Shown: positions 1 to 7,673 of the stretch, piece after piece
Layout: each line of letters opens with the position of its first letter
How positions within the stretch are numbered: the stretch's first letter is position 1
DNA from: Methylorubrum populi
GTDB lineage: Bacteria; Pseudomonadota; Alphaproteobacteria; Rhizobiales; Beijerinckiaceae
Assembly: GCF_002355515.1 (NCBI RefSeq)
Contig: NZ_AP014809.1
Coordinates: 5,108,501-5,172,500 of the forward strand
DNA length: 64,000 nucleotides
Reading direction: 5' to 3'
Made by a program: the position numbers and the translations under genes
The notes under the pieces: generated by a model
What the model was told of the DNA's origin: nothing
What the model saw: only the letters and a program-made list of their open reading frames with translations
The model's database searches: none

Positions 1-1820
1 AACAGGTTGAGCACGAGCAGGCCGAGGGCGTAGGCGATGAACGGCCAGGCGCGGACGAAGTACAGGGTGATCGCGGTCTTGAACGGCTCGGCCTCGGACA
101 GGCTGTCGGCAAGCGGCGAGCCTTCCGCCGCGGCGGCGAGGATGCCGGCCAGAAGCACGTATTTCGCCTGCCGTAGGGCGCGGTCGAGGCGCGGCGGCAC
201 CGCGACCGGCCGGAGGCGCAGGGGCTTGGCCAGCCACGCGACGAATTCCTGCAGCGCGCCGAACGGGCAGAGCCAGCCGCAGAAGGTGCCCCGGCCCCAG
301 ACGAGGAGCGTGGCGATGACGAAGGCCCAGAGCAGCAGCGAGGGCGGATCGTAGAGCAGGAAGGTCAGATCGTGCGTCACGGCCGCGGCACGCACGAGGC
401 CGACCAGGGTGACGATGGAGAGCTGCGCCTGGGCGTACCAGCCGATGAAGAGAAGTGTGAAGGCGAGGTAGGCGAGCCGGAACATGGGGAAGCGGCGCCG
501 GTCGGCCACGAGGCCGCGCTGGCGCGCCAGCACCGGGAGCAGCCCGGCCAGCGCCAGCGCGATCACCCCGAGTTCGACGCCGCGCGCCCGCCACGGATCG
601 GTCCAGCCCGGCCCCGCCTCCGCCGCCTCGCGGATGAAGAGATCGGCCGGCAGCGCGTAATCGGCGGAGAACTCACGGGCAATTTTCTCTGGAAAGATCT
701 GGCCTCGTTCGCGCACGATCTTCGCGCCGAGCGTCCAGGGGGCGGACGGGTCGAAGCCCGCCGCGCCCGTGATCCGCAGGATGGTCCAGGGCCCGTCCGG
801 CAGGCCGGGGGCGGCTCCGCGCCGCTCGATCGCCATGTCGCGGGCGTTCACGGCGAGGCCCCCCTGCGTCACCGTCAGCCGGTCGGGGATCGAGCCGAGC
901 ACGAACTCGTCGCCGAGGGGGTTCTCGGGGCCGTGGCTCACCACCAGCACCGCGTGATCGCCGGGCCCGAGCTCGCGGGTCAGGGCGGCGAAGCGCTCAG
1001 GCCCGAGCAGGGTGCGGCCGATCGCCGGCGCGTTGAGATAGGCGAAGGTCAGGTCGAGGAGCGGCGCTTCGGCCGGGCCGTCACCGGCGACCGCCACGCC
1101 CGCATCGCGGAAAGCGGCCTCCGCCTGGCCGTTGCTGACGGTAAGGCGCCGGAGCCAGCCCCGCGCGCTTAGCTCGGCCACATTCAGGGCTTCGCCGGTC
1201 TCGGGCCGTGCCTCGACCTTCAGGCCGAGATTGGCGGCCCCGAAGCCGAGCTTCGCCCGCGCCACCGCGAGGGAGGCGGCGAGGATCGATTCGTTGATCA
1301 CCCGCGTCGAGGCGGTGGCCATCGAGATGCCGTCGACCGTGGTCTGCGGCGCGGCACCGGAGCCGCGGGCGTTCGGGCGCCCGACCCGGATCGGGCGGCG
1401 GGCCGACATCCCGACATATTGCTCGACGAAGGCGAAGAGCGGCTCCGAGCCGAGACCTTCGAGGAAGACCGGCTCGTGATGGGAGATCACCTTCACGTCG
1501 CGGAACGTCCCGTCGGGGGCGAGCGCCACCAGGAGGTCGGGGGGCGTGCCGCCGAAGCCGGGGATCGGCGCGAGGTCGATCGATTCGAAGGCGTAGGCGA
1601 AGACCTCGTAGCTGCCGGCCTCCTGCTTCAGGATCGGCCAGACCGGCAGCGTCGCGTCGCGCTCGCCGACCACGAGCGGTGCGGGGAAGTGGCGTTCCAT
1701 CCCGGCCCGGTCGAGGCTGCCCGCCGCGGCGAGCGGGGCGGCCAGGGCCAGGGCCAGCAGCGCGAGCAGGGCCGACCGCAGGGCGTTCGATGCGGTGCGG
1801 CCGCGTCCGACCCGCGTCAC
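1..1820 (-). CDS. NosR/NirI-like FMN-binding and 4Fe-4S membrane protein (3' end outside window)
   Basis: Partial gene entering the window from its 5' end. The start is a GTG at 1820 that overlaps the stop of the upstream beta-propeller gene in a GTGA, so the two are translationally coupled. About 606 residues are visible. There is a signal peptide or anchor at residues 10-33, then a periplasmic region with an FMN-binding motif (TTVDGISMATAST, around residue 160, as in NosR/NqrC-type covalent FMN domains). From about residue 405 come several membrane helices, and near residue 515 a CGWLCPFG motif, the start of a NapH/NosR-type polyferredoxin region. NosR proteins pass quinol electrons across the membrane for N2O reductase maturation, but no nos genes are seen here. 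The partners are PQQ-dehydrogenase-associated genes, so the role is probably electron delivery for that system (inference). The missing C-terminus may hold further Fe-S motifs. Confidence 0.85.
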   Translation of the reverse strand, partial: MTRVGRGRTASNALRSALLALLALALAAPLAAAGSLDRAGMERHFPAPLVVGERDATLPVWPILKQEAGSYEVFAYAFESIDLAPIPGFGGTPPDLLVALAPDGTFRDVKVISHHEPVFLEGLGSEPLFAFVEQYVGMSARRPIRVGRPNARGSGAAPQTTVDGISMATASTRVINESILAASLAVARAKLGFGAANLGLKVEARPETGEALNVAELSARGWLRRLTVSNGQAEAAFRDAGVAVAGDGPAEAPLLDLTFAYLNAPAIGRTLLGPERFAALTRELGPGDHAVLVVSHGPENPLGDEFVLGSIPDRLTVTQGGLAVNARDMAIERRGAAPGLPDGPWTILRITGAAGFDPSAPWTLGAKIVRERGQIFPEKIAREFSADYALPADLFIREAAEAGPGWTDPWRARGVELGVIALALAGLLPVLARQRGLVADRRRFPMFRLAYLAFTLLFIGWYAQAQLSIVTLVGLVRAAAVTHDLTFLLYDPPSLLLWAFVIATLLVWGRGTFCGWLCPFGALQEFVAWLAKPLRLRPVAVPPRLDRALRQAKYVLLAGILAAAAEGSPLADSLSEAEPFKTAITLYFVRAWPFIAYALGLLVLNL

Positions 1821-2830
1821 GGGGCGGCGCCCGCCGAGCGCTCGGACGTGCCGGAAGCGGGGCGCACGGCGACTCCCCAGGGGAAGCGGCCGACCTTGAC
1901 GCTGCGGATCGGGCGCTGGGTCGCCACGTCGATCACGGTGACGTCACCCGACACGCCGTTGGTGGTGAAGAGCCGCGACTCGTCGGGCGTCATGGCGAGT
2001 TGCCAGACCCGGCGGCCGACGAGGATGTAGTTCACGACCTTGTAGGTCTTGGCGTCGATCACCGCGACCCGGTCGGAGGGGCCGAGCGCAACGAAGGCGA
2101 AGCGCCCGTCCCGGGTCAGGGTGATGCCCACGGGCTGGAGCCGGTCGGCGGCGATGCCTTTCACCGCAAATTCGATGGTCTCGACCACCTTACGGGTGGC
2201 GGCGTCGATCACCGCGACCGTGCCGCCGATCTCGGAGGAGGCCCAGAGCATCCGCCCGTCCGCGGAGAAGGCGGCGGCGCGTGGGCGCTGGCCCACCGGG
2301 GTCGCGTCGTTGGCCGTGAGCGTCGGCACGTCGATCCAGTGGACCATGTTGGTGGTCTCGGAGGTGGTGACGGCGGTCTTCCCGTCCGGGCTCACCGCCA
2401 TGCCCTCGGGCTCGATGCCGACATCGATCTGCGCCAGCACCTTGCGGGTCTGCGCATCCACCACGGTGGTGGTAGCGTTCTCCTCGTTGGCGATGAACAG
2501 GGTGCGGTCGTCGGGGGCCAGCGCGAACTGCTCCGGATCCTCTCCGGAGGGCAGGTTGTGGCGCAACGCGCCCGTATCGGGGTCGATCACCTGCACCGCG
2601 TCGGAATCGCTGGCGCAGACGTAGAGCGTGCGGCCGTCGCGGGAGAAGGTGAGCCCGCGCGGGCGCCGGCCGACGGGGAAGGTGCGGATCACCTCGAGCG
2701 TGGCCCCGTCAATCACCGAAACGGTGTTGTCGCGCTCGTTCGAGACGAAGATCTCTTCCGCCGCGGCCGAGCCTACGAGCCCGAGCAGGCCGGCGCAGAG
2801 GAGGAGGCGTGCGGTCGCGGCGCGGCTCAT
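1817..2830 (-). CDS. PQQ-dependent catabolism-associated YVTN beta-propeller protein
   Basis: This is a 337-residue exported protein. The signal peptide covers residues 1-24 and ends AAAEE. It is followed by repeated blades carrying the YVTN-like signature (for example VSNERDNTVSVIDG, FIANEENATTTVVDA and FTTNGVSGDVTVIDV), giving a seven-bladed propeller of the family found beside PQQ alcohol dehydrogenases. It is predicted to act in the periplasm, and its biochemical role is not established. It lies 46 bp after the substrate-binding protein gene and overlaps the NosR-like gene by 4 bp, so the three form one leftward operon. The family assignment is firm and the function is unknown. Confidence 0.88.
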   Translation of the reverse strand: MSRAATARLLLCAGLLGLVGSAAAEEIFVSNERDNTVSVIDGATLEVIRTFPVGRRPRGLTFSRDGRTLYVCASDSDAVQVIDPDTGALRHNLPSGEDPEQFALAPDDRTLFIANEENATTTVVDAQTRKVLAQIDVGIEPEGMAVSPDGKTAVTTSETTNMVHWIDVPTLTANDATPVGQRPRAAAFSADGRMLWASSEIGGTVAVIDAATRKVVETIEFAVKGIAADRLQPVGITLTRDGRFAFVALGPSDRVAVIDAKTYKVVNYILVGRRVWQLAMTPDESRLFTTNGVSGDVTVIDVATQRPIRSVKVGRFPWGVAVRPASGTSERSAGAAP

Positions 2831-2876
2831 GAGGCGGATCCCGTTCTCGTTGGCGGCTCGGCGGTTGGGCCCCGCA

Positions 2877-4112
2877 TCAGCCCGGTTTCCGAAAAGCCCG
2901 GCACGCGCTCTCCGGCTCGTCGGGGCCGAGCGTGTCGAGTTCGGTGCGGTGGTGCTGGAAGCCCTCGATCGGGGCGGTGGCGGTCACCGCGCCCGGCCAG
3001 AGCAGGAAGACCGGCTGGCGCAATTGCCCGTCCCAGGCGCGGAAGCTCAAGGGGCGCCCCTTGAAGCCGCCGACCTCGAAGCGCGGCGACAGCACCAGCT
3101 CCGCCACCTTCTCGGGATCGGTGCTGCGCGCCTGCACCGCCGCTTCGCCGAGCGCGTGCACGGCCATCCAGCCGGCGTAATCGATCGGCCGCATCGCCCG
3201 TCCGGCGAGGCGGCGGAACCGGGTCTGGAGCTGCACCGCCGCCCAGGCCTCGACCGGGCGCCCCCAGGCCACCGGGGTGAGCCCCTGCGTGCCGACCACG
3301 GGCCGGGCCGCGGCGGTGTTGTAGACGAGGTTCGCCCCGAACGCCCCGGCCTCGTCGGCGACCGCGACCACGTCGTGCTCGGGGCCGCGGGTGGGCAGCA
3401 CGAACTCGCGGAGCGCCGTGTCGCGGGTGTCGCCGCCCTGCGGATCGTAGCGGGATTCGGCCACGATCCGCGCGCCGAATTTTTTGGCGCTCTTCTTGAC
3501 CGCCTCGGCATAGAGCGCATCCGCCGGGGCCGGGCCGGAGAGCAGCAGGATGCGGGTCCAGCGCTTGTAGGCGAGGAACTGCACCAGCGCGTCGGCGAGC
3601 ATCGTCCGCGAGGGCAGGACGTGAAGCAGGCGCGGCCGGCAATCGGCCTCGCGCAGGCGCGAATCCGGCGCGCCGACATTGAGGAACACGGTGCCCTTGG
3701 CCTCGGGCATGTCGGCGAGCGCCAGCACGTCCTCGGCGGGTGCGTTCAGCACGACGAAGCGCGGCCTCTCGCCGAGTGCGCGAAACGCCACGCGGATGTC
3801 CTCGCCGGCGGCGACGACACGACTGTCGAGGGTGAAGTCCAGGGAGACGAAGCGGCCGGTGGCGTTCGAATCCTTGAGGCCGAGTTCGGCGCCCTTCAGC
3901 CCCTCGTCGTCGGGGATCGGATCCTCGTTGTTGAGGGGCGTGGGCCGCTCGACGCGCCGCTCGAGGTAGTGGATCGCCAGCGGCTCGGCCCGCGCCGGCG
4001 ACAGCAGCGCAAGCCACAGCAGGCCGTGCAGGCTCAGCCCGACGCCGCACGCCTTGCGCCGCGGCGTCGCCCGGAGAGGGCCGCCCTGCCGTTTCCCGAG
4101 CCGCGCCAGCAT
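2877..4112 (-). CDS. PQQ-associated ABC-type branched-chain-like substrate-binding protein
   Basis: A 411-residue periplasmic protein of the type-I binding fold (Leu/Ile/Val receptor-like) that accompanies PQQ-dependent catabolism clusters. I chose the ATG at 4112 because it gives a short basic N-terminus followed by a hydrophobic stretch and cleavage after SPARA. Upstream in-frame codons run into the divergent cytochrome gene. After the signal come the conserved motif NNEDPIPDDEGLKGAELGL and two Rossmann-like lobes. No permease or ATPase gene is next to it, so it may be a sensor, chaperone or ligand carrier rather than a classical transporter component (inference). It is the first gene of the leftward operon with the beta-propeller and NosR-like genes. 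Confidence 0.85.
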   Translation of the reverse strand: MLARLGKRQGGPLRATPRRKACGVGLSLHGLLWLALLSPARAEPLAIHYLERRVERPTPLNNEDPIPDDEGLKGAELGLKDSNATGRFVSLDFTLDSRVVAAGEDIRVAFRALGERPRFVVLNAPAEDVLALADMPEAKGTVFLNVGAPDSRLREADCRPRLLHVLPSRTMLADALVQFLAYKRWTRILLLSGPAPADALYAEAVKKSAKKFGARIVAESRYDPQGGDTRDTALREFVLPTRGPEHDVVAVADEAGAFGANLVYNTAAARPVVGTQGLTPVAWGRPVEAWAAVQLQTRFRRLAGRAMRPIDYAGWMAVHALGEAAVQARSTDPEKVAELVLSPRFEVGGFKGRPLSFRAWDGQLRQPVFLLWPGAVTATAPIEGFQHHRTELDTLGPDEPESACRAFRKPG

Positions 4113-4294
4113 CGCGCCCTGCTCGCCTCCCGATTGTTGTTGGAGCCGAGGATACGTTCGATCGAGGGGCCCCCGGTATTGGACCAAGGTCTCCCCCTCA
4201 CCTCCTCCACCTCCCCAGCGCCCCCGTACCAAAGCACAATGGGTTCGGCCGGGCGCGCTTGCTAACCGTCCTCTCAAGAATGGGAGGAATGAAA
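4113..4294. promoter_or_regulatory. Divergent promoter region between the two PQQ-associated operons
   Basis: These 182 bp separate the leftward binding-protein operon from the rightward cytochrome operon, so both promoters must lie here. I did not find a convincing -35/-10 pair. The segment contains a pyrimidine-rich run (cctcctccacctcc, around 4200) and the cytochrome ribosome-binding site GGGAGG at 4282-4287. Shared control of both operons is inferred from the layout. Confidence 0.45.
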
Positions 4295-4717
4295 ATGAAG
4301 GCTGCACCCCTCAAGGGCGGGCTCCTCGCCGTCGGGCTCGTCCTGTCCGTGTCCGCCGCCTTCGGCCATGGCGACGTGCAGCCGCAGCCCGTGGACACGA
4401 CCGGCCTGGCGCCGCTGGGCGACGCGTGGCGCGAGGAGAATCCCTATCGCGGCGACGCCAAGGCGATCGCCATCGGCGATTCCGGCTTCAATCAGAACTG
4501 CGCCCGCTGCCACGGCCTGCAGGTCATCTCGGGCGGGCTGGCGCCGGACCTGCGCTACCTGCCCCTCGGCAAGGAGGGTGACGAGTACTTCGTGGAGCGC
4601 GTCCGCCACGGCGCGACCACCAACGGCGTGATGAAGATGCCGGCCTTCGAGGGCGTGCTGTCGCAGGAGGCCCTGTGGGCGATCCGCACCTACATCGAAG
4701 CCAAGCACGAGGAGTAG
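4295..4717 (+). CDS. pedF: Cytochrome c-550 of the PedF type
   Basis: A 140-residue periplasmic c-type cytochrome with a signal peptide (residues 1-23, ending SAAFG). A single haem motif CARCH at residues 69-73 is followed by a probable axial Met in VMKMPAF. The sequence resembles PedF, the cytochrome c-550 that takes electrons from quinoprotein ethanol dehydrogenases, so it is the likely electron acceptor of ExaF encoded 1.2 kb downstream. The start at 4295 is preferred because GGGAGG (4282-4287) is 7 nt upstream. The ATG at 4289 would leave almost no spacing. It is first in the operon with the binding protein, 11 bp apart. Symbol given by resemblance. Confidence 0.85.
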   Translation: MKAAPLKGGLLAVGLVLSVSAAFGHGDVQPQPVDTTGLAPLGDAWREENPYRGDAKAIAIGDSGFNQNCARCHGLQVISGGLAPDLRYLPLGKEGDEYFVERVRHGATTNGVMKMPAFEGVLSQEALWAIRTYIEAKHEE

Positions 4718-4728
4718 GAAGGCCGCCC

Positions 4729-5607
4729 ATGCGCGCCCTCCCCCGCCGCCGCGCCGTCGCCCGCGCCATCCTCGCCTGCCTCGTCGCCGCCGGGGTGATC
4801 ACCGGCAGGCCCGCCGCCGCGCGCCCGCTCGACGAGGTGACGGCCTCGGGCGTCCTGCGCGTGGCGATCTACGACGACAACCGCCCCTTCTCCGAAGCGG
4901 GGACAGCGGGTCCCCGCGGCATCGACGCGGATCTCGCCCGGGCCATCGCCGAGCGGCTCAAGCTCAAGCTCGACCTGCGGGTGGTGGATGCCGGCGAGAA
5001 CGTGGACGGCGACTTCCGGCTGAACCTGTGGCGCGGCGACCTCGCCGGTACCCCGCTCGCCGACCTGATGTTGCACGTGCCCCACGACCGCATCCTCGCC
5101 ACCCGCAACGAGCAGATCTTCCTGACCAATCCCTATTTCGAGCAGCGCCTCGCCTTCGCCTATCATCGCGGCCGGATCGAGGGGTTCGAAGGGGTGCGCG
5201 ACCTTGAGGGCAACACCGTCGCGGTCGAGGGCACGAGCGCCTCGGACAGCCTCGTGATGAATGCCGAGGGCGGGCGCTTCCGCAGCACCGTCCGGCATTT
5301 CCGCAGCTTCGACGAGGCGGTGAAAGCCTATCTCGCCGGCGAGACCCCGATCCTCGCCGGCACCCGCGCGGGCATCGAGGCGGCGCTCGCGGCGGCCGGC
5401 GTTGCGGGGCAAGACAATCCCGTGGTCGAGGTGCCGATCCCCGGTCTCGTGCGGACGCGGTGGGACCTCGGCGGCGCGGTCCGCAGCGATTCCCGCGACC
5501 TCGCCTACGCGGTCGGCGATGCGCTCGCCGCCCTGGCGCAAGAAGGACGGCTCAAGGCGATCTGCGCCAGCTACGGCGTCAGCTACACCGCGCCGCAGGG
5601 GTATTGA
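4729..5607 (+). CDS. Periplasmic solute-binding protein of the MoxJ/XoxJ type
   Basis: A 292-residue protein with a basic N-terminus and hydrophobic signal (residues 1-28), then a type-II periplasmic binding fold. The first strand is VLRVAIYDDNRPFSE and the second lobe contains VAVEGTSASDSL. Relatives MoxJ and XoxJ are encoded next to methanol dehydrogenases, are needed for their activity, and are thought to help fold or load cofactor into them. Its place between the PedF-like cytochrome and exaF suggests the equivalent role for ExaF (inference). It could instead be an amino-acid-type binding protein, but no transporter genes are present. Confidence 0.8.
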   Translation: MRALPRRRAVARAILACLVAAGVITGRPAAARPLDEVTASGVLRVAIYDDNRPFSEAGTAGPRGIDADLARAIAERLKLKLDLRVVDAGENVDGDFRLNLWRGDLAGTPLADLMLHVPHDRILATRNEQIFLTNPYFEQRLAFAYHRGRIEGFEGVRDLEGNTVAVEGTSASDSLVMNAEGGRFRSTVRHFRSFDEAVKAYLAGETPILAGTRAGIEAALAAAGVAGQDNPVVEVPIPGLVRTRWDLGGAVRSDSRDLAYAVGDALAALAQEGRLKAICASYGVSYTAPQGY

Positions 5608-5909
5608 GGTCGCTCCATAGTCGTCGGAGCGTGGAAATGCTCCGCCCGGTCGACGAGAAGCAACGCGCCGGTCGATCTGTCATACATTTCGCCTGAATTC
5701 GATTTCGCCGCTCTGTCGAGAGCGGTGGGATCTTCAGTTTCCACAGCACGCGTGAGCCTGATCCGGCGAAGTTCGACCAAAGGCCAATAAGCGTTTCCTG
5801 AGAACCACTCTACGCTCCGGATCCTAAGGGGCGCCCCGCCGATTCTGCGGGGCGGCAAAGCCCCGCGGATCCCGGAAAACCGGGTCCGGTACGATGGAGG
5901 ACATGCCCG
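5608..5909 (+). promoter_or_regulatory. exaF upstream region with hairpins and ribosome-binding site
   Basis: This 302-bp gap ahead of exaF is less G+C-rich than its surroundings between about 5680 and 5800. Near its 3' end are two inverted repeats: gccccgc/gcggggc (5833-5839 and 5847-5853) and cccgg/ccggg around an AAAA loop (5871-5884). A strong GGAGGA at 5896-5901 lies 8 nt before the ATG. The region probably contains an exaF promoter and a structured 5' leader. No gene is supported on either strand. Confidence 0.5.
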
Positions 5910-7673
5910 ATGAGAGTGCGGAACCAGTTCCTGACGGCGGTGGGGCTCGCCGCCCTCAGTGTCGGCCTCGCCCTTCCCGCGATCGCCGAGGTGACCGAGC
6001 AGGACATCCTCAACGACGCCAAGACCCCCGGCGACGTCGTCACCTACGGCCTCGGCCCGCAGGCGCAGCGCTTCAGCCCGCTCAAGACGCTCAACCGTGA
6101 CAACATCAAGGGCCTCGTTCCGGCCTGGTCGTTCTCGTTCGGCGGCGAGAAGCAGCGCGGCCAGGAGAGCCAGGCGCTGGTCAAGGACGGCGTGCTCTAC
6201 GTCACCGGCTCCTACTCGCGCCTCTACGCCGTCGATGCCCGCACCGGCGAGAAGAAGTGGGAGTACAACGCCCGCCTGCCCGAGGGCATCCTGCCCTGCT
6301 GCGACGTGGTGAACCGCGGCGCCGCCCTCTACAAGGACAAGGTCTATTTCGGCACGCTCGACGCCAAGCTCGTCGCGCTCGACCAGAAGACCGGCAAGGT
6401 CGTCTGGCGCAAGGACATCGACGACTTCAAGTCCGGCTACAGCTACACCGCCGCGCCGATGATCGTGAAGGGCAAGATCATCACCGGCGTGTCGGGCGGC
6501 GAGTTCGGCGTGGTCGGCCGCGTCGAGGCGCGCGATGCCGAGACCGGCGAGATCGTGTGGAAGCGCCCCGTCATCGAGGGCCATATGGGCGAACTCAACG
6601 GCAAGCCCTCGACCATGACCGGAAAGACCAACGAGACCTGGCCCGGCGACACCTGGAAGTTCGGCGGCGGCGCCACCTGGCTCGGCGGCACCTACGATCC
6701 GGAACTGAACCTGATCTATTTCGGCACCGGCAATCCGGGTCCGTGGAACTCCGCCCTGCGCCCGGGCGACAACAAGTGGTCGGCCTCGCGGCTCGCCATC
6801 AACCCCGACAACGGCGAGATCGTGTGGGGCTTCCAGACCACGCCGCATGACGGCTGGGACTATGACGGCGTCAACGAGTTCGTGCCCTTCGACATGCAGA
6901 AGGACGGCAAGACCGTGAAGGCCGGCGCCACCGCCGACCGCAACGGCTTCTTCTACGTCCTCGACCGGACCAACGGGAAGTTCATGTCGGCCACGCCGTT
7001 CGTGTCCAACATCAACTGGGCCAAGGGCATCGACGAGAACGGCCGCCCGATCTACGACGATGCCAACCGCCCCGGCGATCCGGCGAAGTCCGAGGACGGC
7101 AAGAAGGGCAAGTCGGTCTACGCGACGCCGGGCTTCCTCGGCGGCAAGAACTGGAACCCGATCGCCTACAGCCCCGACACCCGGCTGTTCTACGTCCCCT
7201 CCAACGAGTGGGGCATGGACATCTGGAACGAGCCCGTGAACTACAAGAAGGGCGCCGCCTATCTCGGCGCGGGCTTCACCATCAAGCCGACCTTCGAGGA
7301 CCATATCGGCTCGCTGAAGGCGATCGACCCGGCGACCAAGAAGGTCGTGTGGGAGTACAAGAACAAGGCCCCGCTCTGGGCCGGCGTGCTCACCACCGCG
7401 GGCAACCTCGTCTTCACCGGCACGCCCGAGGGCTTCCTGAAGGCTTTTGATGCCAAGACCGGCGAGGAAGTCTGGAAGTTCCAGGTCGGCACCGGCGTCG
7501 TCGCCTCGCCGATCACCTGGGAGCAGGACGGCGAGCAGTGGATCGGCGTCGCGGCCGGCTGGGGCGGCGCGGTGCCGCTCTGGGGCGGCGAGGTCGCCAA
7601 GACCACCGCCGGCATCAACCAGGGCGGCAGCTTCTGGGCCTTCCGCCTGCCGAAGGCCCTCGCCTCCCGATAA
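5910..7673 (+). CDS. exaF: Lanthanide-dependent PQQ ethanol/methanol dehydrogenase ExaF
   Basis: A 587-residue quinoprotein alcohol dehydrogenase exported by a signal peptide (residues 1-26, ending AIA). It oxidises primary alcohols in the periplasm using PQQ. The eight-bladed propeller has repeated Trp-docking motifs such as [10 protein letters not shown] and [10 protein letters not shown]. Adjacent Cys130-Cys131 form the vicinal disulfide that stacks on PQQ. In the motif HDGWDYDG (313-320) Asp317 is the catalytic base and Asp319 is the extra acidic residue found in lanthanide enzymes, which calcium enzymes replace with Ala, Ser or Thr. Asp319 matches the residue described as essential in Methylorubrum extorquens ExaF. 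The upstream cytochrome is the likely electron acceptor. XoxF is the alternative name to exclude, but neighbours and residue number favour ExaF. Confidence 0.93.

Follow-up and report, generated by a model that had tools for sequence, protein, structure and literature searches.

The pairing of a membrane flavoprotein with an ethanol oxidase is already known: NapH-like flavinylation clusters that include an ethanol oxidase were described for 172 genomes, with several independent origins and with the flavoprotein in the role of a cytochrome c (PMC8238504; this and the other papers cited by accession were drawn on in part). Within the openly licensed literature, we found such a flavoprotein paired with a pyrroloquinoline quinone (PQQ) ethanol oxidase only in that paper, as far as the portions consulted go, and the literature searched yielded no link between NosR-like proteins and the ped/exa lanthanide system; the words NosR and flavin are absent from the main text of a 2026 review of ped. 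Here we analyze a stretch of 64,000 nt from the 5.94-Mb genome of Methylorubrum populi (G000:C1:5108501-5172500, hereafter the window), at whose left edge a NosR-like flavin mononucleotide (FMN) and Fe-S membrane protein is encoded near a lanthanide (Ln)-type ethanol dehydrogenase, ExaF. New here are the clade to which the NosR-like protein belongs and its changed flavinylation motif, its near-exclusive occurrence with ExaF/PedH-type enzymes, the retention of the cytochrome, the position beside pedA1 and pedA2, and conserved boxes in the control region. We suggest that this protein probably serves rare-earth alcohol oxidation rather than nitrogen metabolism.

The window protein resembles NosR and NirI in its FMN domain, in its CxxxCP pairs and in having two sets of ferredoxin-like Cys, but it is 32-35% identical to them in the alignment, falls in a separate clade, carries x[K/M/R]AT in place of an SGAT-type motif, and is linked to exaF instead of nosZ. 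In the NapH-like clusters, too, apbE and the gene for a PQQ ethanol dehydrogenase accompany that for an FMN/Fe-S membrane protein, and a protein with PF12801 and FMN_bind, ApbE and an ExaA-type enzyme indeed stand together in one cluster here. In contrast to the clusters described in PMC8238504, most of the enzymes are Ln-type, the cytochrome is retained as a rule, and one clade covers the linked proteins sampled, a comparison with the several origins given there that has to allow for searches that began from one clade member and for 33 further NosR matches that were typed by motif and tree only. Finally, homologues of PedF/ExaG, PedG/ExaJ, PedH/ExaF, PedA1/LutA and PedA2/LutB are shared with the Pseudomonas ped and M. 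extorquens exaGJF and lut systems, from which the window locus differs in having no PedB or PedC (family members lie elsewhere in the genome) and in adding the NosR-like gene, apbE and DUF1194.

The NosR-like gene (positions 1-1820, minus strand) is truncated by the window edge and continues for a further 298 bp to the left; its 705-aa product (P0003) is 93% identical to the protein of Methylorubrum thiocyanatum. It belongs to a left-pointing operon with the order pedA1/lutA-like, pedA2/lutB-like, NosR-like, apbE, which encodes an FMN transferase, and DUF1194; apbE lies 4 bp past the NosR-like gene, left of the window, and the DUF1194 gene 15 bp beyond apbE. Divergent from the pedA1 operon, a right-pointing operon comprises exaG/pedF, exaJ/pedG and the Ln-type exaF. 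The genes named in the initial annotation of this DNA, their divergent orientation and a GTGA overlap are all borne out, and the leftward operon extends further than that annotation had it, to apbE and DUF1194. The ExaF/PedH-type PQQ ethanol dehydrogenase (5910-7673, plus strand) has its best Protein Data Bank match in 6zcv (871 bits), which we take to be PedH. Its metal site has the extra Asp (D319, in WDYD) that is typical of lanthanide enzymes.

The NosR-like protein matches the NCBIfam NosR model at 507 bits, half of the 1000-bit cut-off of that equivalog, and has the FMN domain (Pfam FMN_bind), CxxxCP pairs and ferredoxin Cys (Fer4_5) expected of NosR. It is the single FMN_bind match and the single NosR-model match in its genome. 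In trees of 39, 141 and 99 sequences, the window protein and its relatives form a third clade, apart from nosZ-linked NosR and from a group that we label NirI-like, one locus of which (L108) also has a cytochrome d1 protein. Support for the third clade is 100/100 by bootstrap and Shimodaira-Hasegawa-like approximate likelihood ratio test (SH-aLRT) in the 39-sequence tree, and 100 by SH-type values in the other two. None of the 12 Cys varies in any of the 141 sequences from the clade and from NosR/NirI, and the FMN domain of the family profile aligns with RnfG structures at E about 1e-4. One genome, G036, encodes both a nosZ-linked NosR and an exaF-linked clade protein. In another, G026, the NosR-like gene (L056 9092-11118) is split over two frames with two TGA codons in one piece, and may be a pseudogene or reflect a sequencing error.

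What sets the clade apart is the flavinylation motif, for which D-x-x-[ST]-G-A-[ST] has been given, with FMN on the last residue (PMC12052999). The window protein reads DGISMAT at this place. The motif Gly is replaced in all 113 clade rows, which include 110 distinct sequences (K in 79, M in 29, R in 4, S in 1), and is present in 28 of 28 NosR/NirI controls; the other motif residues are retained in the clade, Thr169 in 113 of 113 rows, Ala in 112 and Asp in 110. Among 33 further NosR-like matches outside the clade, found in a phylum sample of 398 Pseudomonadota genomes, 31 have Gly and two, at L284 and L312, have Arg. The x[K/M/R]AT mark could help to tell the clade from NosR in annotation, such that its members are not counted as denitrification genes, and the changed motif would offer a test case for the range of target sequences that ApbE accepts.

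Linkage to nosZ was not seen. The initial annotation had noticed no nos genes and had regarded nosZDFY just left of the window as a finding that would refute its reading. By Pfam, no nos or pqq family lies further left of the window, where one open reading frame of 247 aa has no match, and the only match of the NosZ profile in the genome scores 22.7 bits, over the last 79 of 627 model positions, for a cut-off of 625. Elsewhere nosZ was recognized by a CuA-like pattern, which was absent from the best 80 of at least 589 confirmed relatives (the named loci).

Instead, the clade nearly always travels with a rare-earth-type ethanol dehydrogenase in the genomes sampled, and its linkage to ExaF-type enzymes is far beyond chance. 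Within the genus (37 genomes), a NosR-like gene of at least 69% identity was found in 17 genomes and an ExaF of at least 83% in 18, namely those 17 and G033, giving 17 of 18 exaF genomes against 0 of 19 others (Fisher 1e-9, an optimistic value since the genomes are related). ExaF-type enzymes, scored at 800 bits or more, occur in 33 of the 398 genomes of the phylum sample, with Asp at residue 319 in 32 and Gly in one. The clade is present in 16 of the 398, all within those 33 (p 8e-20, optimistic given kinship), and is absent from G486 and G797, where Ca-type enzymes alone exceed the threshold; in the phylum and class samples, the top two to three first-look candidates per genome were scored. 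The initial annotation had further held that its reading would suffer if the gene were equally common in genomes without a PQQ dehydrogenase, and these counts point the other way.

The association is also visible at the level of the locus. PedA1, PedA2, PedF and PedG are each encoded in 15 of 16 same-genus loci and ExaF in 14 (L047 and L055 end at contig edges), and exa or ped genes are found in 65 of the 80 named loci, or 36 of the 41 whose flanks reach 8 kb or more in both directions, compared with 0 of 27 NosR/NirI loci. Some loci of the two sets are from the same genome or almost so, L043/L123, L048/L124 and L051/L118 being identical and L057/L125 nearly. Where such genes are lacking locally (15 named loci), a D-type enzyme is encoded elsewhere in 13 genomes (one as a partial gene) and was not found in two metagenome-assembled genomes, G799 and G803. 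The distance between the genes varies: the enzyme gene is about 13 kb from the NosR-like gene in G235, nosR-apbE stands alone with exaF about 130 kb off in G312, and six genomes of the phylum sample (G490, G559, G461, G590, G708 and G500) have the enzyme in the genome and no exa/ped gene or apbE within 20 kb of the NosR-like gene. At L260 (G749), which shows no apbE, a set of pqqBCDE-like genes comes after the ped, exa and NosR-like genes.

We favor, with some confidence, the interpretation that the NosR-like protein is dedicated to the Ln-ethanol-dehydrogenase system as a conduit that moves electrons across the membrane by way of flavin and Fe-S centers, a role that is best supported because the FMN, Fe-S and membrane features are conserved and apbE looks intact. 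In this model, ApbE would attach FMN to Thr169 of the periplasmic domain. Electrons exchanged among this flavin, the CxxxCP pairs in the membrane and a C-terminal pair of [4Fe-4S] clusters would then connect the quinone pool with the dehydrogenase and cytochrome c of the periplasm. Either direction would fit the sequence, and we consider inward flow slightly more likely than outward flow, with less confidence than we have in the conduit role itself. The inward route would run from ethanol through PQQ and the flavin to quinone, parallel to cytochrome c-550; ethanol electrons would then enter at the quinone pool and energy would be saved relative to the cytochrome c route. Outward flow would be NosR-like, and could serve maturation or metal selection. 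If the conduit exists, about half of the sampled ExaF/PedH-type bacteria (16 of 33) have a second, flavin-based redox partner, of which we found no mention in the ped and exa literature consulted.

Several observations weigh against this interpretation. The clade is missing from 17 of the 33 ExaF-type genomes, including two of the same genus (L097 and L316), and the module is thus optional; L097, L098 and L316 all keep exaF, pedG, pedF, pedA1 and pedA2 without the NosR-like gene. Of the loci with exaF, 22 of the 26 wide named ones and all 14 from the same genus encode cytochrome c-550, and thus the flavoprotein is not the sole electron outlet. No ApbE match was found in the linked loci L139, L165, L170, L171, L173, L179, L260 and L261. 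Lastly, an ordinary ApbE may flavinylate the altered motif less well or not at all; changing the motif Gly to Ala gave about 50% flavinylation (PMC12052999).

ApbE itself is matched in 65 of the 80 named loci, 16 of 16 same-genus loci and 13 of 27 NosR/NirI loci. The clade-linked and the control groups alike conserve residues S252, H267 and D294 (numbered as in P0002), which probably correspond to the catalytic Ser, His and Asp of PMC12052999. We also considered an ApbE lineage dedicated to the changed motif, an idea that found no support: the ApbEs of the two groups interleave, with five group changes in the tree, at least two of them forced by starred branches, and their strongly conserved residues are alike.

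The alternative that survives best is tentative, and we think it rather unlikely as a whole: quinol electrons could be sent outward to the periplasm for maturation or upkeep of the Ln-dehydrogenase (insertion of PQQ or metal, or thiol state) or for reduction of misbound Fe(III) or Ce(IV), which would let a trivalent lanthanide occupy the site. NosR is thought to donate electrons to NosZ (PMC12052999), and PedA1 and PedA2 are paralogous to lanthanide-transport proteins. A bias of the linked enzymes toward the Ln type would also favor such an outward reductant, because a protein that only accepted electrons would be expected to work just as well with Ca-type enzymes. The linked ExaF-type genes are D-type in 60 of 62 cases (56 of 58 minus four loci seen twice), a count that leaves out L097 and L098, which have no NosR-like gene, and becomes 62 of 64 with them. 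By comparison, the phylum sample has 42 ExaF-type genes, of which 33 are non-Ca (p 0.006 and 0.007, or 0.049 with most Methylobacteriaceae dropped). This Ln preference is suggestive, but weak once relatedness is considered, the gene-level linkage in the phylum sample being 9 of 33 for Ln and 0 of 9 for Ca enzymes (p 0.17). Moreover, a Ca-type enzyme is the only one found with the clade at L162 and L180, and many loci with the NosR-like gene have no pedA1 or pedA2 in view. A more specific form, in which a NosR-derived lineage specialized for rare-earth enzymes would send electrons outward to proof-read lanthanide loading, for instance through reduction of Fe(III) or Ce(IV) loaded in error, and in which ApbE would accept the changed motif, seems to us improbable.

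Less plausible again is the modular replacement proposed in 2021, in which a flavinylated protein takes the role of cytochrome c between alcohol oxidase and respiratory chain. The model was drawn for the ethanol-oxidase NapH-like clusters of the 172 genomes (PMC8238504), as a proposal and not a strict definition. Yet PedF/ExaG is kept alongside exaF and the NosR-like gene in the wide named and same-genus loci counted above, that of the window among them, and strict replacement of the cytochrome is therefore disfavored.

Comparison of 23 Methylobacteriaceae and Methylopila loci revealed two conserved boxes in the divergent control region. On the pedA1 side, ATTGGACCAAGGT (4178-4190) has a core, TTGGACCAA, that recurs in 19 of the 23 loci; shuffled sequence would give 0.36 matches to this box in the window at two mismatches. 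On the exaG/pedF side, CGTACCAAAGCACAATGGG (4225-4243), with the core TACCAAAGC in 21 of 23 loci, has a single match in the window at up to three mismatches, for a shuffle expectation of 0. Read outward, ACCTTGGTCCAAT and ACCAAAGCACAAT agree at 8 of 13 letters by hand count. The box cores persist in the NosR-less L097 and L316 and stand 1.8 kb apart in L097, which suggests one candidate site per promoter and one regulator shared by both operons. None was found in the lut-like cluster described below or in seven loci of other groups, except for the left core in L261.

Such conservation of the divergent region, and the naming of the NCBIfam NosR model as a transcriptional regulator, would fit a redox or metal sensor that governs exaF expression. 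We consider this very unlikely, given that no DNA-binding domain was found in the NosR-like protein with NCBIfam or Pfam and that the box cores outlast the gene. The suggestion in the initial annotation of a dedicated periplasmic system for the alcohol dehydrogenase stands in so far as the clade tracks ExaF/PedH-type enzymes, and sensing is the least likely of the roles it offered; supply of reductant, electron acceptance and PQQ or lanthanide loading would all fit the sequence. That the genes are incidental neighbors within one lineage, for which the 15 of 80 named loci without a local exa/ped gene (some from contig ends) might speak, can be dismissed almost entirely, barring a serious bias in the phylum sample, as the co-occurrence spans classes and gene orders vary.

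Both binding proteins had initially been regarded as orphans, with no ABC (ATP-binding cassette) permease or ATPase. The PedA1/LutA-like periplasmic binding protein (2877-4112, minus strand) scores 474.5 bits with TIGR03863 (cut-off 413.6); its start near 4112 is an estimate, as the open frame extends to 4307. The PedG/ExaJ-like protein (4729-5607, plus strand, start by eye; Pfam SBP_bac_3, 40.8 bits) is encoded between pedF/exaG and exaF. In M. extorquens AM1, PedF- and PedG-like genes flank exaF (PMC12997753), the genes there being named exaGJF (PMC8969499), and a part in enzyme activation has been proposed for XoxJ, ExaJ and MxaJ (PMC7391723). The PedG/ExaJ-like protein is the usual companion of ExaF/PedH-type enzymes and not an orphan ABC part (PMC7391723, PMC12997753). 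In the ped, exa and lut literature, PedA1A2BC and LutAEF figure as ABC transporters of lanthanides. The ATPase and permease are indeed missing locally, as had been noted, but not from the genome: 3 Mb from the window locus, a lut-like cluster (L096, C1:2045682-2054489) encodes TIGR03863 and TIGR03866 proteins, a TIGR03864 ATPase, a TIGR03861 PedC permease and a TonB receptor. The window PedA1 and PedA2 are 47% and 54% identical to the copies in this cluster, and PedA1 is a LutA/PedA1 paralogue, such that the orphan designation is abandoned for both binding proteins. We also rejected the notion that the NosR-like protein substitutes for PedB/PedC, since a PedB-like ATPase and the NosR-like gene coexist in L101, L136, L144, L259-L261 and L275.

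PedA2/LutB-like, a YVTN beta-propeller (1817-2830, minus strand), scores 519 bits with TIGR03866 (cut-off 287), and its stop codon (1819-1817) shares the GTGA with the GTG start of the NosR-like gene (1820). The PedF/ExaG cytochrome c-550 (4295-4717, plus strand, start by eye) scores 200.6 bits with TIGR04494 (cut-off 122). At the far end of the leftward operon, about 1.3-2.1 kb left of window position 1, is the DUF1194 gene (L002 8354-9202), which recurs in two of the 16 same-genus loci and four of the 80 named ones; a DxSxS stretch in its product presumably resembles the metal site of von Willebrand A domains. Beyond it, Pfam identifies a gamma-glutamyltranspeptidase, a polysaccharide deacetylase and a branched-chain amino acid ABC transporter.

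Three related loci carry further variations. An extra cytochrome c and a GSDH-like protein are encoded between the two operons, that is between pedF and pedA1, at L097 (13185-14812). At L317 (G658), an ExaF-like enzyme (67%) has WGYG where others have WDFD or WDYD, with both Asp residues seemingly changed. Beside pedA1-NosR-apbE at L099 (12266-15663), a FIST-domain protein and a hybrid histidine kinase are encoded that resemble the NosP/PedS1 pair of Pseudomonas ped clusters.

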